From: Echinicola arenosa
GTDB lineage: Bacteria; Bacteroidota; Bacteroidia; Cytophagales; Cyclobacteriaceae
Length of the DNA: 64,000 bases
Reading direction: 5' to 3'
NCBI RefSeq assembly: GCF_014841125.1
Contig: NZ_JACYTQ010000002.1
Location: forward strand, 62,001 to 126,000
Shown piece by piece: positions 8,656-60,644 of the stretch; position 1 is the first letter of the stretch, and each line of letters begins with the position of its first letter. Below the pieces are notes generated by a model that saw only the letters and a program-made list of their open reading frames with translations, searched no databases and was not told where the DNA came from. A program made the position numbers and the translations under genes.

Positions 8656-8670
8656 TCTATGATGTTGATC

Positions 8671-10099: not shown

Positions 10100-10115
10100 A
10101 ATGCTCTTATTAAGT

Positions 10116-11470: not shown

Positions 11471-11507
11471 CTAATCCTTACAATTAACGAACTCCAAACT
11501 TTTAAGC

Positions 11508-28821: not shown

Positions 28822-29751
28822 CTAAGCCCTTTTCCTTATCAATTCCCTTTCCTTCCATTCTGTTGGGGACATGCCTTCAAACTGTTTGAATACCCTGGAA
28901 AAATAATTCACACTGCTAAAGCCACTTTCAAAGCAGGCTTCGGTGATATTGCTGCCCTTCCAGAGGATTTGCTTCTTGGCCAATTCCAACCTTTCCCTGT
29001 TGACAAACCTTACGGGCGTTTCTCCTAGCTCCCTTTGGAAAGCCCTGAAAAACTGGGCGCGTGAAAGACAGGCTTGACTGGCTAAACCATCTACGTTCAT
29101 CACTTGATGCAAATTCTGGCGGATGTACCGCACCACATGGGCCAGCCTGTTTCGGGTGCTGAGCTTATCGACATTTTTCAATAAGTAATGTCTGGCTTGG
29201 GTTTGCATCAAGCTGGCAATCAGCTCCCGGGTGGTATTGGAGGCCTTCATTTGTTTCCCAAAGCCATTGTCCACCATCACCCTGATCAGGCTATTGAGGT
29301 TTTCCTGAACCAATTGGTTGTTCATCAGTAAAAAGTTATCCTTGCTCCAAGTCCATTTTTCCTCATCTATTTTGGGAAAGTGTTCATTGAGCCAAGCCAT
29401 AGTTTCCTGTACAAATCCCTCACTGATTTCCAATGCCAAACATTGTGTGGGGTCATCGAAAGTAGCTTCTGGAAAGTCGATGTACATCAATTCGGATGCC
29501 GGCATCACAATGGATTGTCCGGGTAAAAACTCAAATGCATCCTGTGACCTGAGGTGCATGATTTTCTTGCCCTGAATCATGCTTACAATAACCGGATTGT
29601 CAAACTGCAGGTCAAAATTATGGGCCAGCTTACTGGTTTCATAGACGTTCAAAACCGCATGGTCTGCCTGGTGTGCCGTCCTGTGCTCCACCTCTGATTT
29701 AGGAGAGCTAAAAATCTTATACTTCTCTTTGATATGGATGGTGTTCAGCAT
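28822..29751 (-). CDS. AraC-family transcriptional regulator
   Basis: 309 residues. The C-terminal ~100 residues hold both AraC helix-turn-helix motifs (N-V-D-G-L-A-S-Q-A-C-L-S-R-A-Q-F-F-R-A-F, then I-T-E-A-C-F-E-S-G-F-S-S-V-N-Y-F-S-R-V-F-K-Q) and the usual G-M-S-P-T-E-W ending. The N-terminal ~190 residues are a cupin-like sensor of the type found in regulators of alcohol and aldehyde dehydrogenase genes. It is divergent from the aldehyde dehydrogenase gene, with 167 bp between, and most likely controls it in response to an aldehyde or alcohol (inference). Confidence 0.88.
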   Translation of the reverse strand: MLNTIHIKEKYKIFSSPKSEVEHRTAHQADHAVLNVYETSKLAHNFDLQFDNPVIVSMIQGKKIMHLRSQDAFEFLPGQSIVMPASELMYIDFPEATFDDPTQCLALEISEGFVQETMAWLNEHFPKIDEEKWTWSKDNFLLMNNQLVQENLNSLIRVMVDNGFGKQMKASNTTRELIASLMQTQARHYLLKNVDKLSTRNRLAHVVRYIRQNLHQVMNVDGLASQACLSRAQFFRAFQRELGETPVRFVNRERLELAKKQILWKGSNITEACFESGFSSVNYFSRVFKQFEGMSPTEWKERELIRKRA

Positions 29752-32011: not shown

Positions 32012-35134
<3,123 letters not shown>

Positions 35135-35234
35135 TTATAATTTGTTTAATAGGTTTTATGAAGATACCAGCAAGAAATGCTGACTTTGGATTTAGTTGTT
35201 AATAGCTGTATAAAGTACAATGTAAGAGAATCAA

Positions 35235-37379
35235 CTATTGAATCCCTTTGACACCCTCCACCGAAGGTTCTACGGGTATAATATTTCCCTCTGCATCGAA
35301 GGTCAGCGGATCAATACACACTTCCCTATGGTATCCCGCAGCTCTTCCCATTGCAATGCCATGAGGACGCGTAAATCGGTGATAAATAATGTACCATTCA
35401 TCCTTTCCAGGCACTTGAATCACTGAATTATGACCTGTCCCATATATTCCCTGATCGGGCGCTTTAGCGATCACCAAGTTATTATCAGGAATGGTCAAAG
35501 GCCCCATTGGAGAATCCGCAAAAGCATATCTGACACGGTAGTCTTCATCACGGGTATCATTTTCTGACCAAAGGAAATAGTACTTACCATTCCTAAAGAA
35601 AACTTCTGTGCCTTCACGGAAGGTGTTATCTGGAGTCAGCACCTTCAGCTTACTTTTATCAAAGCTGACCATATCCTCATTCAATGGAACCGCTGCCAAG
35701 TAGCCATTGCCCCAATACAGATAATCCTTTCCTGTTCTTGGATCTGTAAAGACATCTGGATCGATTTCCTGACCACCTCTGACGCCTTCAGGTCTAAAAT
35801 CTACCAAGGGTTTTCCTAAATCTTCAAATGGGCCTGCAGGATCATTCGCCACTGCAACACCCACTTTTTGTCCAGCGGTGAAATAATAAAAGTACTTGTA
35901 TTCTCCGTCTATTTTCTTTTCAATGGCACAAGGAGCCCAAGCATTTCTGCTTGTCCATGCTACATCTTTGGTCAAATCCAGGATAACACCATCATCTTGC
36001 CAGTTGGTCAAATCCTTTGATGAGAAAGATTTAAAGTAAGTTCCTGACCATCCCGTAAAACCATCGCTGGTAGGATACAAATGAAACTTGCCCGTCTTAT
36101 CCGAATAAATGATTTCAGGATCGGCATAGTATCCCTTTAGAGCGGGGTTATTGTCTTTTCTGGCCACCACTTGAAATACTTTCTCAGTCTCATCAGGCAT
36201 GGTCAAGGTATAATCCACCGATCCATTGTTGAAATCCTGTGGACCTGAGGGGCTGATCTCAAACCCAGAAAACATTTCAAATTGAGGATCTAGTTGACCT
36301 AAATCTGCTCCTTCCTTCAAAGGAAGATAAATGGTACCCAGCTGCTGATCCAACATCACATTGTTTCCATAAATCTGTTCCGAATTAGTACTTAGGATCC
36401 AGTTTTGATCATCAATCCCATATGCTTCCACCAACCGATTGACCTCTTCCATAGTGATCGGCAATACGGTGCCATGACGAGGATGGAAGTTCATTTTTAC
36501 TTGATCGTCTATGATCCTGAAATTTTCCAAATCAGTACTTTCCGTAAACTGATAAGCCCCTTTCATGTAAACATCGTACATCAAAATATAATTATCAGTG
36601 CCATTTAGTTTGAAAATGCCAGACCCCTCTACGGCTTCTTCTGTTTGTTGTAAGTACCTATCTTCCATGACGTACCCTGTGGTCAATTGATCAGAAACAG
36701 CTTTTTTAATGCCATTTCCATGCCCTTCGGTTTTAAAGAACAGGTGATATTTGCCTTCATGAAAGATGATATCACCATCAATACATGATTTACCCTCTGG
36801 ATGAAAAAACAGTTGTTTTGGCGTCGTTTCCAAGCCAGTAAAATCTTCATTGGCATAGGCATAATAAATGATATCATGCCCACCTTCCTGTAACATGGAA
36901 AAATAAACCATGTATTTACCTGCATCCTGGTCATAAAAGGTTTGAGGAGCCCATACACGTTTGACATCACCAAACTCTGCAGGAAAAACCTCAGGGATTT
37001 GAATGGTACTGTGCGCCCAATGAATCAAATCATCAGACTTCAAAAACACCATCCCCTGATTGGTCCATCCATCTTCAGGAACATACAAATCTGTCAATAC
37101 CATATAAAAACTCCCATCTTCACCTCTCAAAATATGAGGGTCTCTTACCCCTCCTCTGGTACTTATAGTGTCTGCGCTGATCACGGGTTGGTTGTTGTTC
37201 AAAGCCCTAAAATCAAAGCCATCTTTACTGATGGCATAGTGAACAGACTCTTCTCCCGGCCCATTGCCAGTAAAATAGGTAAAAAGATACGCTTCGGTAT
37301 TTTGAGGAGGTGTGCTACAGCCTGTTCCTATCCATAATGCACAGGCTAGAAAACACGATAAGTTCAATAGGTTTTTCAT
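35235..37379 (-). CDS. Two-domain GH43 lipoprotein (GH43-GH43)
   Basis: About 714 residues from the ATG at 37377-37379, giving a lipoprotein signal ending W-I-G-T-G-C-S; an earlier ATG at 37418 would add 13 polar residues. Domain 1 (about residues 30-340) has the five-blade GH43 triad G-V-R-D-P-H-I, I-D-G-D-I-I and V-E-G-S-G-I. Domain 2 (about 400-700) has its own blades: Y-Y-A-D-P-E-I-I-Y, E-I-D-P-D-V-F-T-D and E-G-T-E-V-F-F. GH43 enzymes cleave arabinofuranosides, xylosides or beta-galactosides. Domain 1 closely resembles the proteins at 53661 and 54712, so the gene may have arisen by joining one of these to another family member. Confidence 0.85.
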   Translation of the reverse strand: MKNLLNLSCFLACALWIGTGCSTPPQNTEAYLFTYFTGNGPGEESVHYAISKDGFDFRALNNNQPVISADTISTRGGVRDPHILRGEDGSFYMVLTDLYVPEDGWTNQGMVFLKSDDLIHWAHSTIQIPEVFPAEFGDVKRVWAPQTFYDQDAGKYMVYFSMLQEGGHDIIYYAYANEDFTGLETTPKQLFFHPEGKSCIDGDIIFHEGKYHLFFKTEGHGNGIKKAVSDQLTTGYVMEDRYLQQTEEAVEGSGIFKLNGTDNYILMYDVYMKGAYQFTESTDLENFRIIDDQVKMNFHPRHGTVLPITMEEVNRLVEAYGIDDQNWILSTNSEQIYGNNVMLDQQLGTIYLPLKEGADLGQLDPQFEMFSGFEISPSGPQDFNNGSVDYTLTMPDETEKVFQVVARKDNNPALKGYYADPEIIYSDKTGKFHLYPTSDGFTGWSGTYFKSFSSKDLTNWQDDGVILDLTKDVAWTSRNAWAPCAIEKKIDGEYKYFYYFTAGQKVGVAVANDPAGPFEDLGKPLVDFRPEGVRGGQEIDPDVFTDPRTGKDYLYWGNGYLAAVPLNEDMVSFDKSKLKVLTPDNTFREGTEVFFRNGKYYFLWSENDTRDEDYRVRYAFADSPMGPLTIPDNNLVIAKAPDQGIYGTGHNSVIQVPGKDEWYIIYHRFTRPHGIAMGRAAGYHREVCIDPLTFDAEGNIIPVEPSVEGVKGIQ

Positions 37380-37520
37380 TTTGGTTTTTTCTGATGCTAA
37401 TTTGGTTTTAACCTCCAAATTATTAAATGTTTAATCTACACTTTTGTAAAATCTCTATTATTTTATAAAAGTATATTTTTTGTCTTTGAGGGGTAAAGCA
37501 ACGCCAAGATAAACTCTAGA

Positions 37521-39479
37521 TCATTTGGGGTAAATCACTGCCCCTCCTTCAGGTAGTAGTTTCAACTTTACTTTACCATTTTTATTTATGGTCATTTCTT
37601 TGAGTCCTGCTGTTCGATCTTCTTTGTCAAACAAAAAGTTTACTTCTTGATCGGCAAGCATAGGAAGTTCTACCATGATGTCCTTTTCTGTCTTCTCTCC
37701 ATTCACAGCAACAATGTACCAATTTTCTCCTTTTCTACGAGCCATCACCACATGCTGACCAATAGCTCCAGATATCAAAACAGTTTCATCCCAGGTGGTA
37801 GGAACCTCACGCATAAAATCAAGCACATAAGCGGGCTGTTCAAACAGATTGTTTGGGGTAATTCCAAAATGCTGAACTGGCGAAAAATACAACACTGAGG
37901 TGGCCACCTCGAAGGCATCCGTTGTTTTGCGGTGGTTTCCTTGGTTTTTAGGATCTTTGGCTAACCTTTTATTAAAAAAGACGGGTGCAAAATCCATCGC
38001 TCCAACTGCATTTCTGATAAAGGGTAAAACCGTTGCATTGTAAGCTTGCTTGTCGGTATGATACTGATTAAAAATCAGGTTTTCCGAGGCCAATACAGCT
38101 TCCGAAGTTACGAAATTGGGATACATCCTTTCCCAGCCTCTCGGTAACGTACAGCCATGAAATGTGATAACGAGGCCGTAATCATTGGCATCAGAAAGGA
38201 TATCTTCATAGAGCTTCATGGTCTCCTGCTTATCCCCTCCAAAAAAGTCAACTTTGAGCCCCTTTACACCTATGCTTTGTAACCATTCCATTTCATTTTT
38301 CCGGGCAGGGGCAGAATTCATACAATCCTGAGGCCCTTGTGGAGCATTGTTCCACCAACCATTGGAATTGTACCAAAGCAATACACCCACCCCTTTAGAG
38401 CTAGCATATTTAACCAAGTCTTCCATTCTCGCCCTGCCAATGTTATTATCCCAATAATTATCTATCAGCACAAACTCAAAGTCCATTGCTGCTGCCAAAT
38501 CAATGAACTTGATCTGATCATCATAGTTGATACTCTGATCTTGCCATACAATCCAGCTCCAGGTAGAACGGCCCATTTCATAGGACTGGGAAGCTTCATA
38601 TAATGGTTTGACGACATCGAAAGCGACGGTTGATTCCACAATGGGCTTGAGGTTTTTTCCGACAGTGATGGTTCTCCAAGGCGTTTGCGCAGGAAGTGCC
38701 ATTGCTGCAAAAGTACCCCCGATGGAATTGTTTTCGCCAGCTTGCGGGAACTCCAATGGATACAGGCCTGTTGGACTCCCTTCTCCCAGTCTGGCTCCAA
38801 CATACTTACTGTCCACGCCTGTTTCTGAAATCAGTGCCCAGCCCTTATCTCCAATTTTAAACAAGGCAGGAAAGGTATATCCGACGCCATATTTGGAAGC
38901 GGTCCCCAAAGGCTCATCAAAGGTATATTCCTCTTCATAGCTTGGTTTTGTATTCATCCATCCTGTCATGGGCAAAGCCTGAGGACTGAGATACGTCTTA
39001 GCATCATCCGGAAGATCAAAACCGGTAGCTTCTCCTGTCACCAACAAATTAGTGGCTTCTCCAGCCGTCATCACTTTATATGAAAAAGCCACATCATGAT
39101 TGCTCACTCTAAAAATTGTGTTCAGCGTATCACCCTTGGTATTGATAAACTGGCAGGTAAGTTCATTGGCTTGGTAATGAATGTGACTGACCTTGCCCCT
39201 ATCCATTTCATAATGCTCATCAATGGACCGGTTTGAATGCGCCACATAAGTCAAAGAATCAGAAAAGTTCCCTATGGAGGTTTTTAAACCCAAGGGTGAA
39301 GGCTCCAAAAAAACCGCTCCTTCATAGGCTATCCCATACCATACCTTTCCCCCATCCATTTTTATCTGTACCTCCAAGAGGCCATCAGGCCCTTTTACAC
39401 TCTGGGTCTGGGCTACCACACAAGCCCCTATCAAGTATAGAATTCCTCCAAGAATATATTTTTTCATCATGCGATTCAT
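37521..39479 (-). CDS. GH97 alpha-glycosidase, retaining type
   Basis: About 652 residues with a signal peptide (A-C-V-V-A-Q). GH97 markers: an N-terminal beta-sandwich, then a barrel with W-S-W-I-V-W-Q-D, L-I-D-N-Y-W-D, and G-L-K-V-D-F-F-G-G-D. The Asp in K-V-D-F (near residue 411) is where the retaining branch of GH97, such as the B. thetaiotaomicron alpha-galactosidase, has its nucleophile; inverting alpha-glucosidases lack it. An alpha-galactosidase-like activity is therefore more likely. The ATG at 39477-39479 is taken; two further ATGs follow within 12 bases. Confidence 0.87.
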   Translation of the reverse strand: MNRMMKKYILGGILYLIGACVVAQTQSVKGPDGLLEVQIKMDGGKVWYGIAYEGAVFLEPSPLGLKTSIGNFSDSLTYVAHSNRSIDEHYEMDRGKVSHIHYQANELTCQFINTKGDTLNTIFRVSNHDVAFSYKVMTAGEATNLLVTGEATGFDLPDDAKTYLSPQALPMTGWMNTKPSYEEEYTFDEPLGTASKYGVGYTFPALFKIGDKGWALISETGVDSKYVGARLGEGSPTGLYPLEFPQAGENNSIGGTFAAMALPAQTPWRTITVGKNLKPIVESTVAFDVVKPLYEASQSYEMGRSTWSWIVWQDQSINYDDQIKFIDLAAAMDFEFVLIDNYWDNNIGRARMEDLVKYASSKGVGVLLWYNSNGWWNNAPQGPQDCMNSAPARKNEMEWLQSIGVKGLKVDFFGGDKQETMKLYEDILSDANDYGLVITFHGCTLPRGWERMYPNFVTSEAVLASENLIFNQYHTDKQAYNATVLPFIRNAVGAMDFAPVFFNKRLAKDPKNQGNHRKTTDAFEVATSVLYFSPVQHFGITPNNLFEQPAYVLDFMREVPTTWDETVLISGAIGQHVVMARRKGENWYIVAVNGEKTEKDIMVELPMLADQEVNFLFDKEDRTAGLKEMTINKNGKVKLKLLPEGGAVIYPK

Positions 39480-39540
39480 TATTAATGAAACAATCATTTA
39501 ATCACCCACTTCCACCCTGTTCAACATGGGGCAAGAGCCA

Positions 39541-40755
39541 CTATTGAACGTAACGCAACATCGCTTCGACCAAATAATAGTCTCCATAGGTAAGCGGTAC
39601 ATCTATCTCGGAATTTTCAGGAATATGGCCAACACCATGTTTCAGTAAAAATCCTCCGTTGGTGCCTGCTGCTGCAATATATTCCGGGCCTGTCAAGGTA
39701 GTGATCATTTCCTTGGCATTTCCCCAATACTTCTCTGATTTATCAGCATCTACATAGCCCGAAAGCTCCAATAAAGCCGACGCCATGATGGCGCCCGCAG
39801 ATGAATCCCGAAGTTCATTGGGAATTTGGGGTGCATCAAAATCCCAGTAGGGAATTTTATCATCGGGCATATTTGGATGATTGAGTACAAATTCAGCAAT
39901 GGCAACTGCTTGATCCAAGTATTTTTGGTCTTTGGTCACCCTGTACATCACCGTGTAACCATATAAACCCCAAGCCTGACCTCTTGCCCAAGCTGATTCA
40001 TCAGCGTATCCCTGAGCAGTTCTTTTTTTGTTGACTTCTCCTGTTTCTGGATTATAATTCAACACATGATAAGAACTATGGTCCTCGCGAAAATGATTCT
40101 TCAAGGTGGTGTCAGCATGCTTGATAGCAATATCATAATAAGTAGAATCACCCGTAGCGGCTGTCGCCCAAAACAGCAACTCCAAATTCATCATATTGTC
40201 GATGATTACCAAAAAATCTCCTTCCCTTGAATCCCAGGATTTGATCGCTCCAACCTTCTCGCTAAAGCGGCTGGAAAGGGATTTGGCGCTTTGAATCAAC
40301 ACGTCTTTGTAGGCTGGATTGGGATCAAGGCGAAAAGCATTGCCAAAACTGCAATACATCATAAAGCCCAAATCATGGGTAGAAGTATTGTACTGCTCCT
40401 TTTCCAATAGATCCAGGGCACGTAACGCTTCATTTTTTATGGCTTCATCTTTATGGTATTCATCTAAATACAATAGGGTCCCAGGGTAGAATCCACTGCA
40501 CCACCACCCCGATCCACTTGCCTCGAATCGATCTGTTTTAGGATGATACGTTTTAGGAAATTTGTCTTCCGGCAACCGGGTCATCATGTACTTATACTGC
40601 TCATTAGCCCTGTCAAAGGTACTACTGATTTGTTTGCTGAGATTTACTTCCTCCACTTCCAAATCTTCCTTATGTTGGGATCCATTTGTGTTTTGCCCAC
40701 AACTGGCCAGCAAGCCCGATGCTACTACCAATCCAAACAAGTGCTTTTTCATCAA
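39541..40755 (-). CDS. GH88 unsaturated glucuronyl hydrolase
   Basis: 404 residues, lipoprotein signal G-L-L-A-S-C. The (alpha/alpha)6 family markers are present: S-G-W-W-C-S-G-F-Y-P-G-T-L-L-Y, then S-T-H-D-L-G-F-M-M-Y with the first catalytic Asp, D-N-M-M-N-L-E-L-L-F-W-A with the second, and A-R-G-Q-A-W-G-L-Y-G-Y. These enzymes remove the unsaturated uronic acid left by a polysaccharide lyase. That implies a lyase upstream in the pathway; the neighbouring BNR-4 propeller protein is the candidate. Confidence 0.9.
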   Translation of the reverse strand: MMKKHLFGLVVASGLLASCGQNTNGSQHKEDLEVEEVNLSKQISSTFDRANEQYKYMMTRLPEDKFPKTYHPKTDRFEASGSGWWCSGFYPGTLLYLDEYHKDEAIKNEALRALDLLEKEQYNTSTHDLGFMMYCSFGNAFRLDPNPAYKDVLIQSAKSLSSRFSEKVGAIKSWDSREGDFLVIIDNMMNLELLFWATAATGDSTYYDIAIKHADTTLKNHFREDHSSYHVLNYNPETGEVNKKRTAQGYADESAWARGQAWGLYGYTVMYRVTKDQKYLDQAVAIAEFVLNHPNMPDDKIPYWDFDAPQIPNELRDSSAGAIMASALLELSGYVDADKSEKYWGNAKEMITTLTGPEYIAAAGTNGGFLLKHGVGHIPENSEIDVPLTYGDYYLVEAMLRYVQ

Positions 40756-40783: not shown

Positions 40784-42097
40784 TTATTTTACTTCGATGA
40801 CTTTCACGGGCGTCACCAAACCCTCCAACAAGCCCTCGCCGTCGATTTGCTCTACCCTTTGGACAAATAACTGGAGCCGTTGGCGTTGTTTCCATAATTC
40901 AATATCATAAGACGGTTCCCACTGTCCTACCGTCTCCTTAGTCAAATCGATCAATTCCCATTGGTTTTCATGGAGATCTGGCGAATAGGCCATGGACACT
41001 TTATTGCCTCGCTCTTCATCTCTAAACAGTAAATAAAGCTGAGTTTGCTTTCCTTTTTGTTTTACCAAAACCTGAGGTCTTGAGATAGGGATTCTCTTGG
41101 TTCCACCGCCTCCAAGCTGAAAAGTCGTTGATCTAAATTCCGGGCTAGCCCTCTTCCATTCCTGATCATGTTTATAGACCACCTGATATTGGGTCTTTCC
41201 GTTTTGATTCCAATAAGTAGCAATGTAGGGGTTCCCCTTTTTATCAGCATAAATAGCTGTTTGGTTAATCAAACTACTATTCTGGGGAATTTCCCATGCA
41301 TATTCAGCTTTTTGTAAATTGATGGGCAAGTTATAAGCTGCTCCATTGGACTTCATCCAAGTCTTCCCACCATCTTCAGATTTGGCGTAAGCTAAATCGT
41401 GATTGGTGGAAACATCCCAGGTCTCCCGCCATACCCAAGACAGGTGAATGGTACCTTGCTGATCCACACAGGCCTGCCAGTAGGCATTACGTTCCCCTTC
41501 ACCATCTATCAAATTATCGTGGATTTGCCGCCATTGCTTGGTACTAACATCATATCTGTTCATGACCAAATTACCTCTTCCAGACTCACCTGATCGATAA
41601 AAGAAAAGGAGATCTCCATTGGGCAGGTTGTGAAATTCCGGATAGGTAACATCCTGCTCCAGCTTCCCTGTCATGGATTGCATTTCACCTAATTCCAAAC
41701 CCAAAGCTTCCTTGCTTTGGGCATAATGCAAAGGATTATTATGATGATCCCAACTGACGTGAAGAAACCCTTCACCATCAAGGGCAATACTGATGGTATT
41801 GTGCGCATCTGCCGTATTGCCAGTAAAGGTCGTTTGATTTACTTCCCACTCATCACTACCCAATTTCCGCTTTGCCAAAACCAAATGGCTACTTGAATCA
41901 TAATAAGCGGTAAACTGTGTGTCTTTGTAGGTTGTTATGGAATTCCTTCTAAAAATCACCGCATTGACAGAGTTGTTGGCCCAACCTTTTCCCACAACCG
42001 TTTCATTTACCGATGAACCAAAGGGCTTACTGCTGATGCAAGCAGACAATAGGCCTACTATCAAAATCAATATACTGCTTGCGACGATTCTACTCAT
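40784..42097 (-). CDS. BNR-4 seven-bladed propeller lipoprotein; candidate lyase (PL24/25/42) or GH145
   Basis: 437 residues from the ATG at 42095-42097, preferred to an upstream ATG at 42142 because a good ribosome binding site (AGAGGAT) precedes it and a lipoprotein signal (G-L-L-S-A-C) follows. It has BNR/Asp-box-like blades and the conserved strip A-H-N-T-I-S-I ... S-W-D-H-H-N-N-P-L-H-Y, with His99 and His119 twenty residues apart, the spacing I recall for the catalytic histidines of the PL25 ulvan lyase. Relatives include ulvan lyases (PL24/25), rhamnose-glucuronate lyases (PL42) and GH145 rhamnosidases. The following GH88 gene supports lyase activity on a glucuronate-containing glycan. 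Confidence 0.75.
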   Translation of the reverse strand: MSRIVASSILILIVGLLSACISSKPFGSSVNETVVGKGWANNSVNAVIFRRNSITTYKDTQFTAYYDSSSHLVLAKRKLGSDEWEVNQTTFTGNTADAHNTISIALDGEGFLHVSWDHHNNPLHYAQSKEALGLELGEMQSMTGKLEQDVTYPEFHNLPNGDLLFFYRSGESGRGNLVMNRYDVSTKQWRQIHDNLIDGEGERNAYWQACVDQQGTIHLSWVWRETWDVSTNHDLAYAKSEDGGKTWMKSNGAAYNLPINLQKAEYAWEIPQNSSLINQTAIYADKKGNPYIATYWNQNGKTQYQVVYKHDQEWKRASPEFRSTTFQLGGGGTKRIPISRPQVLVKQKGKQTQLYLLFRDEERGNKVSMAYSPDLHENQWELIDLTKETVGQWEPSYDIELWKQRQRLQLFVQRVEQIDGEGLLEGLVTPVKVIEVK

Positions 42098-42150
42098 TTT
42101 ATCCTCTTCAAATTTATTTTGGACTTGATACAGCTCTTGCATTGTTTTTT

Positions 42151-43404
42151 CTATCGTTCGGCATGATCACGGGTGGCATCACCACCTGACCATATTCTTT
42201 TTTGGGTCCAGTCCACTGCTGGATCAGCCCAAAAAGGAGCATTTGCAGGAAGCCCTAATACCAAAAAGACCTCTGCACAGAGATAAAGGCTTCCCGTAGA
42301 AATGTAAGGTTCCGCTACTTCCGGTTGATGGCCATAAAAGCCTAAAGTCAACCATCCTTGGTCATCAAACATATCTTCTGCCTCCATATGCCTCCGGATA
42401 ACAGATGCTAGGGCACCTCTCACTTGAGCAGGCTTTACTTTATCGGGCAATTCTTGCCATAAGGCTATTTGGGATAAACATTGAAAAGCGCCAAAACGAT
42501 AAGCCATTGACCTTCCAATGATTGGATAAGTCCCTTCTGGAGAGATCAGCCTTTCTTGAATGGCCGCGTACCTTTGGGCGCGCTCCAAGAAAAGATCAAA
42601 GTCTCTACCCATTCCTAGATCTTTTTCTTTCAGCACTTTGGTAATGTCCAATAACATGGGTTGAATGACAAAACTGTTGTAATAATCCCAATGAAATTCA
42701 GGACCATCACCATACATCCCATCGCCCAAATACCATTCTTTATGTTTGTTAATGGGATAGGCCAATCTTACCATATCCGCTTCTCCATCAAACTTCAGCA
42801 ACGCTGCTTCTACCATTCCGGTAAACAGCAACCAGTTGCTGTAAAAGGGAGAAATTACCCTTGAAGACTTCAATGCGGCAATGACATTGGCTTTAGTTTC
42901 CGGGGAAAGAGGCTCCCAAAGTTGGGTAGGCGCTCTTAAAAGTCCCTGTGCAAAAAATGCCGCATCCACCAAAGGTTGCCCGTTTTCGGTGAAGTTCATA
43001 AAGTCTGCTGATTCAGGATCCGTAGCATTGTGGATGGATTGTTGCGCCAAAAGGATGTATTTTTTCCTCAATTGTCCCTCAGGGGTATCGTCAGGACCAA
43101 GCTCTAGCCAAGGTCCTATCCCCGCTAAAAGTCGACCAAAAGCTTCTAAGTAAGTTACCTGCTCTCTACCTCCATAGGCATCTTTGGTTTTTTCTACCGG
43201 CATGGTCGCTTTAAGCTCCTGCTTGCTCAACGCCGATAGGACAGGGTCTGCAATTTTAGTCAACACTTCCACATAATACTCCCGAGATTGTGCTTCACCT
43301 TTATTTTCTCCAGTTCCCTGAGCAAAGGAAGCTTGGCACAGCAATAGCAATCCCAATAAAAGTCCTTTTTGAATCTTATTTTTTCTCATCTTGAATCTAT
43401 TCAT
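42151..43404 (-). CDS. DUF2264 (GH154, beta-glucuronidase-type) protein
   Basis: 417 residues with an N-terminal signal peptide (Q-A-S-F-A-Q). It matches DUF2264: F-G-R-L-L-A-G-I-G-P-W-L-E-L near residue 90, N-W-L-L-F-T-G-M-V-E near 195, and Y-G-D-G-P-E-F-H-W-D-Y-Y-N-S-F-V near 234, an acidic/aromatic cluster likely forming the active site of the (alpha/alpha)6 barrel, then G-R-S-M-A-Y-R. Members were classed as GH154 after beta-glucuronidase activity was found, which would fit a uronic-acid-bearing substrate. It lies directly before the BNR-4 gene. Confidence 0.82.
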   Translation of the reverse strand: MNRFKMRKNKIQKGLLLGLLLLCQASFAQGTGENKGEAQSREYYVEVLTKIADPVLSALSKQELKATMPVEKTKDAYGGREQVTYLEAFGRLLAGIGPWLELGPDDTPEGQLRKKYILLAQQSIHNATDPESADFMNFTENGQPLVDAAFFAQGLLRAPTQLWEPLSPETKANVIAALKSSRVISPFYSNWLLFTGMVEAALLKFDGEADMVRLAYPINKHKEWYLGDGMYGDGPEFHWDYYNSFVIQPMLLDITKVLKEKDLGMGRDFDLFLERAQRYAAIQERLISPEGTYPIIGRSMAYRFGAFQCLSQIALWQELPDKVKPAQVRGALASVIRRHMEAEDMFDDQGWLTLGFYGHQPEVAEPYISTGSLYLCAEVFLVLGLPANAPFWADPAVDWTQKRIWSGGDATRDHAER

Positions 43405-43473: not shown

Positions 43474-44364
43474 TTATTTATCCTTCTGATAAACACGCAC
43501 ATAGTCCACTTGATAGGTCCTCGGAAAACGGGTGTTCGTCGGATCTCCACCATTGCCTCCAATGGCCAAATTGAGCAAAATATAATGGGGCTGATGAAAA
43601 GGATTAAAGCCATCAGGGTTGATAGTAGTCTTCAGGTCCACCTCGTTTAGCAGCTCATCATCAAGGTATAGTTTGATATAATCTTCGGTCCAGTCCATTT
43701 TCCATATGTGAAACTTACTGGGCCAGTCCGGGTCTTTTTCCAGGAATTTGCTGAAAAGGATTTTCTCTTCATCCCATTGAGAGGCGTACTGACCTCCCGC
43801 TTTTTTCCAGGCGGCATTGGCCAATATGGTGGCTTTCCCATCTACCCGATAATATTCCATGATATCCACTTCTCCATTAGCCGGCCATCCTTTTGAGACA
43901 CCCAATGTCCAAATGGCAGGCCACATGCCCAAGGCTGTATCGATTTTGGCTCTGACTTCAATCAGACCATATTTGAATTCTTTTTTCCCTCTTGTATTGA
44001 TACTGGAAGAACTGTAGTGTGCATACGCTTGATTCCTTCGCCAATCTTGGCTCTTGGCATCATAACGTGCATTCTTTACTTCTTCTCTTTTGCCTTCAAT
44101 CACCAATAAGCCATTGCTCACTTGGGCATTTTCGGCTTGATAATATTGTAATTCGTGATTTCTTACCAAACCGGTTTCATAGGACCAAAAGGCCTCATTC
44201 GGCTTACCCTCGTAGTCAAATTCATCCTGCCAAACCAATTCATATCCCACTTTTTGGGAAGCATGGTGGGGATTTTCTTTGCTCTTGCTTTTTACACTGG
44301 AGCAAGACCATGACATGAAAGCAGATAGCAAAAGGAATAATAAATGTATTGCTTGGGTTCTCAT
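43474..44364 (-). CDS. GH16 endo-beta-glycanase lipoprotein
   Basis: 296 residues with a lipoprotein signal (F-M-S-W-S-C). The GH16 active-site strand G-E-V-D-I-M-E-Y places the nucleophile at Glu165 and the acid/base at Glu170, without the beta-bulge Met insertion, so it uses the ExDxxE form. Other markers are W-Q-D-E-F-D, Y-G-L-I-E-V-R-A-K, M-W-P-A-I-W and the closing M-D-W-T-E-D-Y-I-K-L-Y-L-D-D. GH16 includes laminarinases, agarases, porphyranases and endo-beta-1,3-galactanases, and the subfamily cannot be fixed by eye. As the only clear endo-enzyme in the block it probably makes the first cut at the cell surface. Confidence 0.9.
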   Translation of the reverse strand: MRTQAIHLLFLLLSAFMSWSCSSVKSKSKENPHHASQKVGYELVWQDEFDYEGKPNEAFWSYETGLVRNHELQYYQAENAQVSNGLLVIEGKREEVKNARYDAKSQDWRRNQAYAHYSSSSINTRGKKEFKYGLIEVRAKIDTALGMWPAIWTLGVSKGWPANGEVDIMEYYRVDGKATILANAAWKKAGGQYASQWDEEKILFSKFLEKDPDWPSKFHIWKMDWTEDYIKLYLDDELLNEVDLKTTINPDGFNPFHQPHYILLNLAIGGNGGDPTNTRFPRTYQVDYVRVYQKDK

Positions 44365-44369
44365 GCCGT

Positions 44370-45182
44370 TTACTCCTCTACGGATAAGTCCTTAATTTTT
44401 ATCTCTTTGAACATTACTCCTTGTCCTTCAGATTGAAGCCCTATGTATCCTTCTTTTAAAAGCTGTCCATCGACCTTCAAATCTGGATTAAATCCATGAG
44501 CTACACCACCTCCAATTTGTGGGCGTGTGTATTGCAAAACAGTATCTCCATTGACCAAATGAATTACCAAAGAGTCACCATAAACAATGAGGTCCGCTTT
44601 AACCCATTCATCCCATTTGTAAGTTTCAGAAGTTGAATTGATACAATGTCTTGGATCCATTTCTCCTTCAAAATAGACTTCAGTCCCCGGCGAACACATA
44701 TTTCCTGTAGGTCTCGGTACTCCTTCTTCTGCTTCTGCCAGCATTTGCCATTCCACAGAAATCGGCCAATCCTGTTCTTTCAACTGACTTTCTGGAGATT
44801 GGGAATGGAACATCACACCACTATTTCTATAAGTATAACTTGGGGCATCTTCGAGCCATTCATCTGTAAATCGGTATTCCCATTTTAAATGAAAGGAAGA
44901 AAAAGGTTTTTTATAAAATAAATGGCCATAGCGTTCATCAAAGCCTTCATCATAACCATCGTACTTTACCAAGATTGCTCCGTCTTTAACGCGGAAAGTT
45001 TCTCGATAATTTTCTCCTGATTCGTGGTGATGAATTTTTGGAATCCACCCGTCCAAGTCTTTACCATTAAAAAGCGTTTTCCATTCTTCTTTGGACGCTT
45101 CTAAATCTTTTTCTTGTGAGGAGGTGCAAGCTGCGCCCGCAAGGAAACTTACCACGGCAAGTCCTAAAATCTTCATGTTCAT
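44370..45182 (-). CDS. DUF1080 (3-keto-disaccharide hydrolase-like) lipoprotein
   Basis: About 270 residues from the ATG at 45180-45182; the first 39 codons of the longer frame are not protein-like, and the lipoprotein signal (F-L-A-G-A-A-C) begins just after this start. The concanavalin-like DUF1080 domain shows W-K-T-L-F-N-G-K-D-L-D-G-W-I-P, W-E-Y-R-F, N-S-G-V-M-F-H and the late W-D-E-W-V-K-A-D. Relatives hydrolyse 3-keto-glycosides made by Gfo/Idh/MocA-type or other sugar 3-dehydrogenases. It ends six bases before the GH16 gene on the minus strand, so the two are co-transcribed. Confidence 0.85.
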   Translation of the reverse strand: MNMKILGLAVVSFLAGAACTSSQEKDLEASKEEWKTLFNGKDLDGWIPKIHHHESGENYRETFRVKDGAILVKYDGYDEGFDERYGHLFYKKPFSSFHLKWEYRFTDEWLEDAPSYTYRNSGVMFHSQSPESQLKEQDWPISVEWQMLAEAEEGVPRPTGNMCSPGTEVYFEGEMDPRHCINSTSETYKWDEWVKADLIVYGDSLVIHLVNGDTVLQYTRPQIGGGVAHGFNPDLKVDGQLLKEGYIGLQSEGQGVMFKEIKIKDLSVEE

Positions 45183-45295
45183 TTGCTGCTTTACATTTAG
45201 TAAATCACTAAAATAGCTTAAGACTTCCTTATAGAAAAATTGGCCGCCCAAAGATAAAGCATATATTCTCTTTGGACAGCCAATCATTAACCTTA

Positions 45296-46969
45296 TCAAT
45301 AACCTGTATTCTGACCTAGATCAGCATCTTTATTCAAATCAATTTCAGTTTGTGGAATTGGCATCAACATATTATAGTCCTCCAAGCCATTTGTAGTTTC
45401 AATAGCGCCACCTGCTAAAGGTGTGGTTCCTGTTAATCTGGTCGCCCTTTCGACTAATGTACCTGTTCTGACAAGGGTTTTTCTTCTGTTTTCTTCCGCC
45501 AACAACTCACGCACCCTTTCGTCCAAGATAAAATCCAAATCAATATCAGCACTACTCACCAAGCTGGCATTTGCACGGTCTCTCAAAACATTGATATCTG
45601 CTGCTGCACCATCCAAATTTCCTTGTTTAAACCTTGCTTCAGCTCTCAAAAGATAAGTCTCTCCTAACCTCATGAGGATAAAATCTTTCCACATACCATA
45701 ACCGAAATTATCTCTTTCATCATATTGACCCCACTTGAGGGTATATGGAACATACTTGTAAACGGTATCCGCGGCGAATATTTTCACAGATGAACCGTCG
45801 CTCAAAACAAATTCGGAATCGACACCGTAAGGTACTTCTTGCCCTCTGATGGCATCATATTTTGCCTCAGGATTATTGAAGTATAGGGTTCTTTTCAAAT
45901 TGTACTTCGAATTTCTCATGTCCATTTCTTCGTACAAGTCATACACTACCCAATTGTTCAGCCTGATTCTGGCAATTCCTCTTCCACCAGTAGTGTCAGA
46001 TGGATGCATTCCAGGAAGGTCATGATAAGAAGCTACCCATATCCTCCTTTGTTGAGGGGATCCAGAACTTCCGCCAGTCACATCTGCTGGATTTTCAGCT
46101 TCCAATACCCATATGCCTTCTGTATTACCCTGACTTCTTCTTTGGTTTCCAAAAAGGAACATATCCGAAAAGGCATCTCCGGGATCATTGGCTCGAACCC
46201 CGTACCTGTCTTGTACCAGGCTCAATCTACCGCCATTGATAATTTCTGTGCATTGTGCTTCCGCTTTGGCATCTTCTCCCATTCTTAGGTATACTTCTGC
46301 CAAAAGCTGTCTGGCCATTTCCTTATTAGCTCGGCCGCCTTCGGGTGCATCACCAATATTTGGCAAAAACTCCACTGCTTCAAGCAAATCTTCCTCGATG
46401 ACATTGTCCACCTCGGCGACTGCTGTTCGCACAAAATCTGTTTTGGGGGCAGATAAAGGCTCCGTCAACAGTGGAACATCACCAAAATGGGTCACCAAAT
46501 TGTGATAAGCTAAAGCTCTGAAGAACTTCCCTTCAGCTCTAAAAATAGCCATTTCATCTGCTGTAACACCAGCGACAGACTCTCCTGAAGTACTCTGGAT
46601 CAGGATGTTGGCATTATTGATCAGCCTATAATATGCCCCCCATATTTTTCGGGCAGCATTATCTGTCGAGTTAAGGACGTCATAGTCAAAGTGAGGCCTT
46701 GCATCACCATTGGACCGACCTGCTGGCGCCCAGGCAATATCAGTACCTAATTGCCATACTCCACGGATGGTTTGGTCATCGGTAGTGGTAAACATCGTGC
46801 CATATTGATAGTGCAAACCGATCACGGCAGCTTTAAAGCCGAGTGCGTCTTTTAACACTTCTGGCGCATAACTGTCCAGCACTTCTTCATCCAGAAAATC
46901 TTCACCGCATCCGGACAAAACGCCCATTAAACACAGGCCACTGAAGAATAGTTTTATATGTTTTTTCAT
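45296..46969 (-). CDS. SusD/RagB-family glycan-binding lipoprotein
   Basis: About 557 residues from the ATG at 46967-46969 (lipoprotein signal M-G-V-L-S-G-C-G-E-D-F-L-D). The helical TPR-like SusD fold is marked by A-K-F-F-R-A-L-A-Y-H-N-L-V-T-H-F-G-D-V-P-L, A-E-V-Y-L-R-M-G and the C-terminal Y-L-L-R-A-E-A-R-F and E-E-N-R-R motifs. It sits on the outer membrane and binds the glycan over the SusC pore encoded 26 bp upstream. Confidence 0.95.
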   Translation of the reverse strand: MKKHIKLFFSGLCLMGVLSGCGEDFLDEEVLDSYAPEVLKDALGFKAAVIGLHYQYGTMFTTTDDQTIRGVWQLGTDIAWAPAGRSNGDARPHFDYDVLNSTDNAARKIWGAYYRLINNANILIQSTSGESVAGVTADEMAIFRAEGKFFRALAYHNLVTHFGDVPLLTEPLSAPKTDFVRTAVAEVDNVIEEDLLEAVEFLPNIGDAPEGGRANKEMARQLLAEVYLRMGEDAKAEAQCTEIINGGRLSLVQDRYGVRANDPGDAFSDMFLFGNQRRSQGNTEGIWVLEAENPADVTGGSSGSPQQRRIWVASYHDLPGMHPSDTTGGRGIARIRLNNWVVYDLYEEMDMRNSKYNLKRTLYFNNPEAKYDAIRGQEVPYGVDSEFVLSDGSSVKIFAADTVYKYVPYTLKWGQYDERDNFGYGMWKDFILMRLGETYLLRAEARFKQGNLDGAAADINVLRDRANASLVSSADIDLDFILDERVRELLAEENRRKTLVRTGTLVERATRLTGTTPLAGGAIETTNGLEDYNMLMPIPQTEIDLNKDADLGQNTGY

Positions 46970-46995
46970 TGGAATTTTCATAATTCAATGGGTTA

Positions 46996-49965
46996 TTAAA
47001 GGGTTAAATTTAGACCAAAGGAGAATGTTCTGATCAATGGGTAGTTATTTTCCCAACCATTAGATCCTCGGGATACCTGGTTGTTTTCAGGATCCCAGCC
47101 AAACCAATTTGTAAAGGTATGTAGGTTTCTTCCCGCCGCATAAAGGGTCAAACTACCAATGTTATACCGATCCAAAAAGGTTTGCGGTACCATATAGCTC
47201 AATCTCACGTCTTTGATCCTTACATAGCTGTAGTCTTCGGCAAACTGGAAACCTCTGTAGCGATTGTATGCTGACAAGGAAGGCCAGTAGTCACTAGGGT
47301 TATCCGGAGTCCAATATTGGTAATCTGCCGGAAGGTTTCTTCTCCATGCCTCATCCGCATAGGTAAGGTCTCTGTTGCTTTTGAGTCCACCCTGAGAAGT
47401 TTGGATGAAAACACTTAAGTTCCAGTTTTTGTATCGGAAGGTATTGGTAAGGCCTCCGATCCACTTTGGATCTCTTTGTCCTACAATCACACGGTCTTCT
47501 GCAGTGATCTGCCCATCACCATTCTGATCCTTAAATTTAAGGTCTCCAGGTTGTGCCACAGGATCTACTGAAGAAGCATCTTCTCCTTCTTGCCATATGC
47601 CGGTTTTCTCATAATCGAAGATCACCCGCAAAGGCTGACCAATAAACCATTGGTTCCCAATATCATCTTTACCATCTCCATAAAGATCAACGATCTCGTT
47701 TTTATAGGTGGAGAAGTTCAGGGATGTTTCCCAAGAAAAGTCCGAATTTTCAATATTCACGGTATTAAGGGTCAGCTCAAAACCTTTGTTTTGCATTTCA
47801 CCAAGATTGGCCCACACATTATTATACCCTGTAATCGTTGGGAGATTTCTTCTTAGTAGAATATCCTCTGTATTGGTTTTATATACTTCCACCGTACCAC
47901 GGATTCTGTTTTGAAGAAAACCAAAGTCCAAGGCCAAGTTAGCAGAAGTGGTCGTTTCCCAAGTAAGATTGGCGTTACCAAGTGAGTTATACAATACGCC
48001 TACTTGAGCGGCTCCTCCAAATGGCTGCAATACCGTATTGGCAGTAGAAACAGTTTGGTTAGGATCGATGGCCTGATTACCAGACTGACCATAAGAGAAC
48101 CTCAGCTTCAACTCACCCAATCCTGAATGATTTTGCATAAAATCTTCATTGTGGATATTCCATCCCAAAGCCATAGACGGGAAAAGACCATACTTACTGG
48201 TATTGGCTCCAAAAGCAGAATAACCATCTCTCCTAGCGGTAACAGTCACCAAATACTTACTGTCATACGAATAATTCAACCTTCCCATTTGAGAAAGCAA
48301 AGTATAGTTGTTGGCATCAGACCAGGTTGCCTGTGTGGTACCTGCTTCCATGCCGTTGTACGAAAGGGCATCATTGATAAAGCCTCTGGACTGACCTGCA
48401 GACCTGAAGTATTCCACGCTTTGCGCACTGTACAATGCCGTAACATCAAAATGGTGCTTTTCAATGTCTCTGGCATAAGTCAGGATATTCTCTACCACCC
48501 AGTTGGCACGCTCTGTATTGGAAACATCAGCTGTCCCATTTTGATCATTAAACTGTCTTCCGGTATACCCTGCAAAACGATCAAAATTATATACGTAAGT
48601 GGCATTGAATCGATAGGTAAGCCCTTCTACAAATCCCGGTGTAATATCAGCATATCCTGAACCAGAAAGGGTTCTCCTTCTATCCAAACGGTCTGTAGTC
48701 AGCCCTAAAAGCGGGTTTTTGAATAATTGCTCAGGATTCATTGGGAAAATAACATATTCTCCATTTTCATCATAAGGAACCGAATATGGGCTCATAGCAG
48801 TTGCTTCCAACCAATTGACCCTACCACCATCGTAATTGTTGTCCGTAAAAAAGGAAGAAGTACCCACTTTCAGCCAATCTGTGATTTCTGCATCAATATT
48901 GGTTCTGAAATTTGTTCGCGCATATTGATATCCTTTGACCACCCCTTTTTGCTTGAGGTGACTTCCTGATACATAGTATTGAATTTTTTGGGTACCACCA
49001 GAAATGCTCAAGTTGTGCTCAGAAATTCGACCAGGCTGTGTGGCCTCATCCAACCAATCGGTTGTAATACCTGCTTCGTAATTCTCCACTTCAGAGGCAT
49101 TGGGAAGTACATTGGTTTGAGGCTGATTATTAGCGGTTAGATAATCTGCATATTTCTGCACATAAGCATCTGGGCTCATGGGGTCAAGTACGTGGGACAT
49201 TCCTTCAAACCCCACATAACCACTATAATTGATCTTTGGTGTTCCATCTGTTTGGTTTCCCCTTTTGGTAGTCACCAAGATTACCCCATTGGCACCCCGC
49301 GTACCATAAATAGCTACGGCCGAAGCGTCCTTTAAGATCTCTATGGATTCAATATCACTCGCATTCAAATCATTGATTGAACCAAAAAATGGTGATCCAT
49401 CAACCACCAAAAATGGACTGGTATTGGCGTTAATGGAGTTAACGCCCCGAATCTGAAGACCTCCAGTACTACCGGGTACAGACGAACCCTGACTGACTGT
49501 CAAACCTGCCGTGGTACCCTGAATCGCCTGGGTGAGGTTAGTTACAGGTAAATTGCTTAACCGGTCTTTAGGAACCGAAGCGACCGAACCTGTGATATCT
49601 GACCTTTTTTGAGTTCCATATCCTACAACGACCACTTCGTCTAGTTGGCCAACATCCTCGCTTAAGCCTATCGAAAGTTCAGATGCATTACCCACCGTTA
49701 CTACTTTGCTCTCATAACCAATAAATGAAATGTTGAGCACTGCATTTTCCGTCGTTAGTGATAAGGTGAATTTTCCATCTAAGTCTGTTGCAGTACCATT
49801 AGAGGTGCCCTGCTCTAAAATCGTCGCCCCTGGGATGGGCTCTTGTGTAGATTCGTCAATGACGACTCCGGTAATTGTCCTGTTCTCTGTTTGCGCTAGC
49901 AATGAGGAGCAGAAAAGGCAGGATATGATCAAAATCCCCACCATTTTTAATACATAGTGCTTCAT
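46996..49965 (-). CDS. SusC/RagA-family TonB-dependent glycan transporter
   Basis: About 989 residues from the ATG at 49963-49965; the 14 codons before it are not signal-like. A signal peptide (S-C-L-F-C-S-S-L-L-A-Q) is followed by a carboxypeptidase-regulatory-like domain (residues about 30-105, I-T-G-V-V-I-D-E...G-T-S-N-G-T-A-T-D-L-D-G-K-F), the TonB box region V-V-V-G-Y-G-T-Q, the plug (N-L-T-Q-A-I-Q-G, I-E-I-L-K-D-A-S-A-V-A-I-Y-G-T-R-G-A-N-G-V-I) and the beta-barrel ending in an aromatic-rich strand. It imports oligosaccharides made at the surface and is the first gene of the minus-strand block. Confidence 0.96.
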   Translation of the reverse strand: MKHYVLKMVGILIISCLFCSSLLAQTENRTITGVVIDESTQEPIPGATILEQGTSNGTATDLDGKFTLSLTTENAVLNISFIGYESKVVTVGNASELSIGLSEDVGQLDEVVVVGYGTQKRSDITGSVASVPKDRLSNLPVTNLTQAIQGTTAGLTVSQGSSVPGSTGGLQIRGVNSINANTSPFLVVDGSPFFGSINDLNASDIESIEILKDASAVAIYGTRGANGVILVTTKRGNQTDGTPKINYSGYVGFEGMSHVLDPMSPDAYVQKYADYLTANNQPQTNVLPNASEVENYEAGITTDWLDEATQPGRISEHNLSISGGTQKIQYYVSGSHLKQKGVVKGYQYARTNFRTNIDAEITDWLKVGTSSFFTDNNYDGGRVNWLEATAMSPYSVPYDENGEYVIFPMNPEQLFKNPLLGLTTDRLDRRRTLSGSGYADITPGFVEGLTYRFNATYVYNFDRFAGYTGRQFNDQNGTADVSNTERANWVVENILTYARDIEKHHFDVTALYSAQSVEYFRSAGQSRGFINDALSYNGMEAGTTQATWSDANNYTLLSQMGRLNYSYDSKYLVTVTARRDGYSAFGANTSKYGLFPSMALGWNIHNEDFMQNHSGLGELKLRFSYGQSGNQAIDPNQTVSTANTVLQPFGGAAQVGVLYNSLGNANLTWETTTSANLALDFGFLQNRIRGTVEVYKTNTEDILLRRNLPTITGYNNVWANLGEMQNKGFELTLNTVNIENSDFSWETSLNFSTYKNEIVDLYGDGKDDIGNQWFIGQPLRVIFDYEKTGIWQEGEDASSVDPVAQPGDLKFKDQNGDGQITAEDRVIVGQRDPKWIGGLTNTFRYKNWNLSVFIQTSQGGLKSNRDLTYADEAWRRNLPADYQYWTPDNPSDYWPSLSAYNRYRGFQFAEDYSYVRIKDVRLSYMVPQTFLDRYNIGSLTLYAAGRNLHTFTNWFGWDPENNQVSRGSNGWENNYPLIRTFSFGLNLTL

Positions 49966-50197
49966 AATTTTAAAGGTTATATTGTTAATTTTTCTTGGGT
50001 AAATCATCAGTACTTTTAAAATGCCCGTCTTCGAATTCTTTTTTAAAAAAACCTCGAAGGACTTTTTCTTTCCTTCAAATTCACAATTGAAATATGGCTA
50101 TTTAAAACAATTAATGTAAGTTTAACACTTATTTAACGGTAATCTTAACGGTTAAACAAATGCCTTTAGAAGCCCTACAGGCTTATTATGAAGATTA
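49966..50197. promoter_or_regulatory. Divergent promoter with helically phased direct repeats
   Basis: The 232-bp gap between SusC and the membrane-bound regulator contains TTAACACT (50122-50129), TTAACGGT (50133-50140) and TTAACGGT (50145-50152). Start-to-start distances are 11 and 12 bases, one helical turn each. Tandem direct repeats one turn apart are the usual binding sites of OmpR/PhoB-type winged helices, the fold predicted for the N-terminus of the divergent regulator. Confidence 0.55.
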
Positions 50198-51376
50198 ATG
50201 CCCGCAAAAATGAAACAAGCTAAATTGGACAATAAGGAAAAGCTCGAAATAATTGAAAATATTATAAAAAGTAAGACTTTCAATAGAGCTCCTTCTAGCT
50301 GCGTACTACTGAAGTTTCTTGCAGAAGCAACCCTTGCAGGAAGAGATTTAAAAGAGACCACGATTGGCATGGAGCTCTATGGGAAGTCCTATGAAGATGA
50401 AAAGAGTGCCGCACATATCCGTGTTAATGTTTATCATCTGCGAAAAAAACTGGACAAATATTATCAGGAAGAAGGGGCTGATGATGCCTGGAAAGTGCAA
50501 ATAAAAAAAGGGCAATACCAAGTCAACTACTTTAAAAACCAAGTGGGTAAAACAGCCTCAAGCCTAGCCATACTGGGTATAGGAGTTGCCGCTTTTGTGC
50601 TACTACTTGCCGTGGCCTTTTGGCTGCTCAGCAGAAAAGAAAATATCCCGCTTTGGCAAGTCTATTTTGACAATGGGAAAGAAACCAAGCTATTTATTGG
50701 TGATTTTTTTGGTATAATGGGAGAAACCGCCACTGGTGCAATTGGATGGAACAGGGATTACAATATCAATAACTTAGAAGACTATTATCGCTACCTGGAA
50801 GACAACCCTGAGAAAAAAGGCATGATCAATCCAGCCAACTATCCCTATGTTACGGGCATGGCCGCTACTGGCACCATGAACATCTCTCGACTTTTTCATC
50901 GAAAAGACAATGATTTCAATATTTTATTTAGCTCTCAGACATCCATCAAGGACATCACCGAATCAAACTCTATTTACATCGGCCCTATTAAAAACGGAAA
51001 TCCATTTATTGACTTTTTTAATGATGCCAACCCCCATATCTCCATCAACCGTGGAATGCTTGACTTTAGGGACCCTGACCGAAGCATCGACACCCTGATC
51101 AACTTAAGTGTGGACGATGGACAAGTTTACGAACATGCGGTGGTTTCAAGATATAATGGTCCAAATGACACCGAACAATTTGTTTTCTTCTCTGATCACG
51201 ATATTGGTGTAAAAGCCACTACTGAGAAATTCACAGACACCGAATGGCTCAATAACCAATTCAAAAATTTGATCAAAGACTCGGAGCATTTCACCGCCAT
51301 CTTCTTGGTCAAAGGTAAAGAAAGGACCAGCATGGAGCTGGAATTACTGCTTTGGGATGTTTTGGAGGAAGAATAG
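50198..51376 (+). CDS. Membrane-tethered winged-helix regulator (ToxR/CadC-like plan)
   Basis: 392 residues in three parts. Residues about 10-112 form a DNA-binding module: F-N-R-A-P-S-S-C-V-L-L-K-F-L, then T-I-G-M-E-L-Y-G, and the recognition-helix candidate A-A-H-I-R-V-N-V-Y-H-L-R-K-K-L, closing with the wing K-K-G-Q-Y-Q-V. Residues 119-144 are one hydrophobic helix followed by S-R-K. Residues about 150-392 would lie in the periplasm (P-L-W-Q-V-Y-F-D, F-I-G-D-F-F-G, N-I-N-N-L-E-D-Y-Y-R, I-Y-I-G-P-I-K-N). No kinase, receiver or sigma/anti-sigma part is present. Divergent placement next to SusC makes it the probable regulator of the block, sensing a ligand across the membrane (inference). Confidence 0.75.
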   Translation: MPAKMKQAKLDNKEKLEIIENIIKSKTFNRAPSSCVLLKFLAEATLAGRDLKETTIGMELYGKSYEDEKSAAHIRVNVYHLRKKLDKYYQEEGADDAWKVQIKKGQYQVNYFKNQVGKTASSLAILGIGVAAFVLLLAVAFWLLSRKENIPLWQVYFDNGKETKLFIGDFFGIMGETATGAIGWNRDYNINNLEDYYRYLEDNPEKKGMINPANYPYVTGMAATGTMNISRLFHRKDNDFNILFSSQTSIKDITESNSIYIGPIKNGNPFIDFFNDANPHISINRGMLDFRDPDRSIDTLINLSVDDGQVYEHAVVSRYNGPNDTEQFVFFSDHDIGVKATTEKFTDTEWLNNQFKNLIKDSEHFTAIFLVKGKERTSMELELLLWDVLEEE

Positions 51377-60500: not shown

Positions 60501-60613
60501 ACTTCAACGTGAGAAACATAGGCTACTATGCACCACAATGGGATTGGTTTGATCCAGAAAACAGTGGTGTAACACCACGCTATATGACGCTGGGTGTAGA
60601 CCTGACGCTGTAA
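57512..60613 (+). CDS. SusC/RagA-family TonB-dependent glycan transporter (second)
   Basis: 1033 residues: signal peptide (H-W-A-A-W-A-Q), carboxypeptidase-regulatory-like domain ([19 protein letters not shown]), TonB box V-V-V-I-G-Y-G, plug ([33 protein letters not shown]) and barrel ending V-D-L-T-L. It is only distantly similar to the first SusC of the window, so it is not a recent copy and may import a different fragment. SusD follows after 31 bp. Confidence 0.96.
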
Positions 60614-60644
60614 TCCAACTCCTTTTCACTCAAATGAACTAACA

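Follow-up and report, generated by a model that had tools for sequence, protein, structure and literature searches.

According to the portions of the papers cited, regulators of the ToxR/CadC type have a winged helix at the N-terminus in the cytoplasm, followed by a single membrane helix and a C-terminal domain outside, and the tox-box is made up of TNAAA-N5-TNAAA repeats at 10 bp (PMC5936718, PMC8517210). For Bacteroides, the cited part of PMC3878776 names three systems to which the control of SusC/SusD loci is usually ascribed: SusR, hybrid two-component systems and ECF sigma factors. SusR is described there as a single protein in the membrane that combines a sensor in the periplasm with a DNA-binding domain in the cytoplasm and activates the starch SusC/SusD genes, and the hybrid two-component systems exert local SusC/SusD control through direct-repeat DNA sites (PMC3878776, PMC10766802, in the parts cited). 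An earlier note on a 64,000-nucleotide stretch of the Echinicola arenosa genome (the window) had proposed that a ToxR/CadC-like protein is the apparent switch of a SusC/SusD block. Judged from sequence, this membrane-spanning DNA-binding protein of a marine bacterium very probably switches on the adjoining sugar-uptake operon via a matching candidate DNA site.

Results

Domain architecture of the regulator

The regulator gene and the domains of its product were located as follows:

50198..51376, + strand: regulator gene, 392 aa, with winged helix, membrane helix and C-terminal domain (ORF check, homologues)
50237..50533, + strand: winged-helix DNA-binding domain, residues ~14–112 (domain matches and structure model)
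50561..50632, + strand: single membrane helix, residues ~122–145 (hydropathy; helix 124–145 in the model)
50633..51373, + strand: C-terminal domain, presumably periplasmic, residues 146–392 (~247 residues), without known family

Thus, the ToxR/CadC-like architecture claimed for 50198–51376 is present. The earlier note had made its reading depend on a winged-helix fold of the N-terminus, and this domain gave domain and fold matches to OmpR/PhoB-type winged helices, which places it in the OmpR/PhoB/ToxR type; its helix carries SAAHIRVNVYHLRKKL and its hairpin WKVQIKKGQYQVNYF. One weak NCBIfam row (QseB) spans the DNA-binding part only, and Pfam searches of the regulator detected no receiver, kinase, AraC, propeller, sigma-factor or anti-sigma domain. 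The hydropathy of the membrane segment exceeded 1.6 in 72 of 73 members (1.23 in L040), and a second segment was seen only in L153. Three residues of the C-terminal domain (D169, G262 and G373) are invariant across 48 members, and no credible match to this domain emerged among Pfam, NCBIfam or PDB sequences. Fifteen rows from these searches, factor VIII, CheA and ICT1 among them, were dismissed as chance (E ≥0.25), and its AlphaFold2 model built from two sequences (pLDDT 37) was too poor for use. From the topology, the C-terminal domain lies presumably in the periplasm, and we read the protein as a membrane-bound one-component regulator with the topology of ToxR/CadC.

The divergent SusC/SusD block

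As the earlier note had described, the regulator and susC genes are divergent; they stand head-to-head, 190 bp apart. The presumed target operon and the genes behind it are the following:

46996..50007, − strand: SusC-like TonB-dependent receptor without STN match, whose gene opens the presumed target operon (Pfam)
45296..46981, − strand: SusD-like protein (Pfam)
44370..45299, − strand: 3-keto-disaccharide hydrolase family protein, PF06439 (Pfam)
43474..44364, − strand: GH16 enzyme (Pfam and further comparison)
42151..43404, − strand: DUF2264 protein (Pfam)
40784..42142, − strand: GH145-like enzyme (match to 5mum, E 1.6e-146)
39541..40755, − strand: unsaturated glucuronyl hydrolase-like enzyme, GH88/GH105 type (sequence match)
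32012..39497, − strand: GH97, GH43 and GH2 genes, same strand as the susC block, putative operon members (domain match)

The GH145 and unsaturated glucuronyl hydrolase-like genes stand beside SusC/SusD, as in an arabinogalactan utilisation locus, and in another species of Bacteroidota GH145 and GH105 are described as taking the Rha-GlcA caps off arabinogalactan proteins (PMC8406133, in the part cited). One GH43 protein compared with PDB was closest to arabinofuranosidase/xylosidase. The assignment of a full arabinogalactan set to the block was dropped, because the cited part of PMC8406133 names GH145, GH105 and GH43_24 for arabinogalactan utilisation, and GH16 is absent from that paper. The regulator may sense a product of an arabinogalactan-like glycan.

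The earlier note had also stated that none of the usual regulator types occurs near this block. This was true inside the window, where the 19 scanned ORFs of 32012–63723 gave no sigma or anti-sigma match, but a Reg_prop/Y_Y_Y/AraC regulator without kinase or receiver match is located just right of it (L157:4869-7811, window-equivalent 67868–70810), between two PSD1/DUF1501 pairs. These pairs (PSD1, DUF1549/DUF1553, cytochrome-like, with DUF1501; L157:755-4591 and 8095-11906) belong to the same enzyme cluster, and in other genera members of this regulator family have such a pair as their divergent neighbour. Among the window ORFs scanned (from 19896 rightward), only one further transcription regulator was present, of AraC type (28822–29751) and beside an aldehyde dehydrogenase gene. 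The Reg_prop/Y_Y_Y/AraC protein could mainly control the susC block, leaving the membrane protein as an accessory, and its position in this enzyme cluster, at a distance of about 17 kb, would suit such a role. However, its gene lies past the second SusC/SusD pair (57512–62483), and phmmer with that one protein, which a more distant type could escape, found no relative in the ORFs of ~19-kb stretches around 15 orthologous regulators, so that we regard this explanation as quite unlikely.

Homologues and their divergent neighbours

A search of its own genome with the regulator gave one match, and the nearest named relative, the one found in a genome-contig scan, was that of Echinicola salinicaeni (80% identity in the best segment). 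Within the genus, 10 of 11 genomes had a close copy, namely the window's own and nine more (69–81% identity), and the eleventh genome (G003) had only relatives at 37 and 30% identity. The distribution in the family is patchy: full-length homologues occupied 48 places in 41 of 295 genomes, window included, and 10 further genomes had a match to the N-terminal domain only. At the phylum level, where at most four candidates were scored per genome, 15 of 395 genomes, window included, gave a match, three of them to the N-terminal domain only. No member was found in the viral contigs searched.

The upstream neighbour was divergent in all 72 homologues outside the window, that is, in 47/47 from the family and 25/25 from other families or classes (24 phylum-survey places and one more in L134), compared with 107 of 475 other genes at 56 family loci. 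When the divergent runs were typed by profiles from 22 Pfam-checked sequences, 28 contained a SusC/TonB receptor, 20 PSD1, 12 GH2 and 12 none of these. The linkage to SusC/TonB-receptor operons expected by the earlier note was conserved, as the receptor was directly adjacent in 23 of 72 cases, 14 in the window's family, one in another family of the class (L133) and eight in other classes (L139, L140, L142, L143, L146, L149, L150 and L152). A role as a local switch is supported, but at least three types of neighbour recur, SusC being one of them and PSD1/DUF1501 and GH2 further ones. On a quick tree of 72 rows, window included, the target type switched at least 13 times; L136_5 was left out of this tree because its ORF start was called too late and its intergenic region includes coding sequence.

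The 72 do not include long winged-helix/TPR relatives, whose upstream neighbour was divergent in 5/9 cases in family f1 and in 3/3 further ones (L154–L156). The latter three share the winged helix, and their intergenic regions contain half-sites similar to the candidate operator of the regulator. In L154, TPR repeats follow the winged helix and a DcaP-type porin gene is divergent, in place of which L155 and L156 have a gene of the same size.

A candidate operator accompanies the regulator

Two features were assigned to the region between the divergent genes:

50121..50155, + strand: candidate operator TTTAAC-N5-TTTAACGGT-N4-TTAACGGTTAA (conserved intergenic island)
50089..50097, − strand: conserved block CCATATTTC toward susC, candidate −7 region of the susC promoter, not an exact TAnnTTTG

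The candidate operator has three half-sites at spacings of 11 and 12 bp, and the third of them is palindromic. In the alignment of the window with 15 orthologues, it was the lone island of near-identity, TTTAAC-N5-TTTAACGGTA-N3-TTAAC(C/G)GTTAA, amid diverged intergenic sequence: at least 14 of the 16 rows were identical in 25/35 operator columns versus 22/155 other columns. The consensus was initially derived by eye from f1 loci, then the core, AACnGT-N6-AACnGTTAA with half-sites 12 bp apart and the end TTAACnGTTAA, was spotted by eye in clades with GH2 or PSD1 as the divergent gene, and finally it was scored out of 12 on both strands, including a 60-bp flank. Scores of at least 11 were reached by 48 of 73 regulator intergenic regions versus 1 of 569 others, and scores of at least 10 by 50/73 versus 11/569. 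The latter 50 comprised 40 of 48 regions in f1 (window included), from which the motif was written, 9/9 in further families of the class, which were retrieved once the score had been set and include the near-copies L134 and L136, and 1/16 in other classes. The site accompanies the regulator across SusC, GH2 and PSD1 neighbours, and it is missing (score <10) at 8/48 f1 and 15/16 other-class regulators. In L149–L152, which belong to other classes and lack the candidate operator, the helix reads RSYIS(N/T)LRKKL instead of RVNVYHLRKKL, a pattern that would fit a co-change of protein and site. L138, which kept the PSD1-like helix VRVYIYNLRKKL (RVYIYNLRKKL) yet has no such operator, counts against this.

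An exact pattern search of 295 genomes gave 37 sites in 35 genomes. Twenty-eight of them were directly upstream of the regulator gene on the same strand, 23–79 bp before the matched start; of the remaining nine, two preceded susC genes of G001, two PSD1 genes (G200 and G080), and five had other positions, four within ORFs and one between genes in the same orientation. Sites occurred in 28 of 41 genomes with a full-length regulator versus 7 of 254 others (Fisher p ~7e-23, a value that treats kin genomes as independent and includes 28 sites at the loci from which the motif was written). As the reversed control pattern gave 51 matches by tally, 10 of them in one genome, and thus outnumbered the operator pattern, the argument rests on the position of the sites and not on their number. 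The window's genome has one exact copy; with up to three mismatches four matches were obtained, two at the window site (one per strand) and two elsewhere that each had three mismatches, compared with six for the reversed control. The loose pattern TTTAAC-N5-TTTAAC-N7-TTAAC was dropped (57 matches in this genome versus 112 in the reversed control). The same genome contains a dispersed repeat close to TTTAACCCGTATTTAACCCCTAGTTAAGC in at least 13 near-identical copies (e.g. L091, L092, L094–L097).

In G001, one locus (L040/L188) holds three operator copies, two of them before separate susC genes 6 and 17 kb away. There the regulator and a susC gene are separated by a 1471-aa glycosidase-like gene and a 236-aa ORF, and this susC has its own operator copy in the same orientation ~290 bp before its probable start; the region before it is the lone one among the 569 non-regulator regions that scored at least 11. 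The third copy lies 158 bp ahead of the susC gene most closely related to that of the window (989 aa, L188:5469-8435). One of these two susC genes looks frameshifted near its start. In G080 and G200 PSD1 promoters retain the operator (L189:4792-5330 and L190 near 4819) with no intact regulator alongside: in G080 it is missing, and the next ORF in G200 gave no profile match and agrees with intact regulators in its first seven residues only (MEKAVFL), so it is perhaps a regulator remnant.

These two promoters, together with the regulators that lack the site, are what one would expect if the operator belonged to another, global regulator and the membrane protein were merely nearby. Against this, only seven sites were found in the 254 genomes without a full-length regulator, five of them unrelated to such operons and the other two being those before PSD1, and the site tracks the regulator from one type of neighbour to another, which makes a global regulator very improbable. 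We regard the site as a candidate operator of the membrane protein.

Promoter geometry

The −7 box of Bacteroidota, TAnnTTTG, sits at −12 to −5 (PMC9723704, in the part cited). In 12 of the 18 PSD1 loci with the operator, which form three kin groups of 7, 3 and 2 on the tree, this box was found 30–31 nt beyond the operator toward the divergent gene, and the same spacing occurred in L061 with a different neighbour. The half-sites of the 12 loci are thus at about −44 to −64 relative to the divergent gene, upstream of the core promoter, a place for an OmpR/PhoB-type activator. The membrane protein could instead be a repressor of the divergent operon that is released when a ligand appears, for which the DNA site and the placement are equally expected. 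A further point in its favour is that in three of the 12 PSD1 loci (L070, L072 and L074) an exact TAnnTTTG belonging to the promoter of the regulator itself lies 10 nt past the end of the operator; a bound protein would cover the −33 region there. The position in the 12 PSD1 loci suits an activator, however, and the operators kept in G200 and G080 are compatible with either sign; repression of the divergent operon seems unlikely to us. No exact TAnnTTTG toward susC was present in the window or in its 15 orthologues, and a block similar to that of the window, CCATATTC, stands beside the extra operator of L040. By analogy with the PSD1 loci, we infer activation of susC, and likewise self-repression of the regulator gene; activation is rated lower than recognition of the site.

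Discussion

Three findings came directly from the computations: the order of the domains, the head-to-head arrangement of the two genes, and a conserved site that accompanies both the regulator and susC promoters. We consider it highly probable, on these comparative grounds, that the protein is a membrane one-component regulator of ToxR/CadC topology, which would bind a dedicated operator and control the susC operon and its own gene. Winged helices in the cytoplasm would bind side by side on the tandem AACnGT half-sites between the divergent genes, and this binding would act on both transcription units, probably activating the divergent gene and repressing the regulator's own. The C-terminal domain may sense a breakdown product of an arabinogalactan-like glycan in the periplasm.

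In a wider sense, the results lean somewhat toward a class of catabolic switches in Bacteroidota, in which a regulator of ToxR topology with a new sensor-domain family and a portable operator has been repeatedly matched to new operons (SusC/SusD, GH2 and cytochrome-like PSD1 with DUF1501). If this is true, SusC/SusD operons would have a fourth main type of regulator in addition to the three listed in the cited part of PMC3878776, and it would be the first regulator assigned to PSD1/DUF1501 operons within the open-licence literature searched. Such a type, which combines a compact sensor with a predicted operator, would account for loci that lack the three regulators, make their inducers testable and provide a small membrane-spanning sensor usable in Bacteroidota, and the functionally obscure PSD1/DUF1501 operons would gain a link to a regulator.

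Compared with the known systems as far as the cited portions describe them, the regulator resembles ToxR/CadC in its N-terminal winged helix, single membrane helix and presumably outer C-terminal domain as well as in a candidate tandem DNA site, spaced 10 bp in the tox-box and 11–12 bp in the candidate operator. It differs from them in a C-terminal domain without credible Pfam, NCBIfam or PDB-sequence match, in its occurrence in Bacteroidota with ties to SusC/TonB-receptor, GH2 and PSD1/DUF1501 operons, and in the candidate operator sequence of its own family. Like SusR, it is a membrane protein with a presumed sensor outside and the DNA-binding domain inside, but the latter is an OmpR-type winged helix at the N-terminus (SusR was compared by description only). 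It shares probable local control of SusC/SusD operons and a direct-repeat candidate site with the hybrid two-component systems, whose propeller, kinase, receiver and AraC domains it lacks. Local control of SusC operons is also a property of ECF sigma/anti-sigma pairs (PMC3878776), unlike which this locus has neither an STN match in SusC (46996–50007) nor a sigma or anti-sigma match among its 19 scanned ORFs. Since SusR and ToxR/CadC share the topology, the principle is already known. Titles and abstract openings in the open-licence PMC literature searched mentioned no ToxR/CadC-like or winged-helix membrane regulator tied to SusC/SusD or DUF1501. As far as this literature shows, the link of the regulator family to SusC and PSD1 operons and its candidate operator are new.
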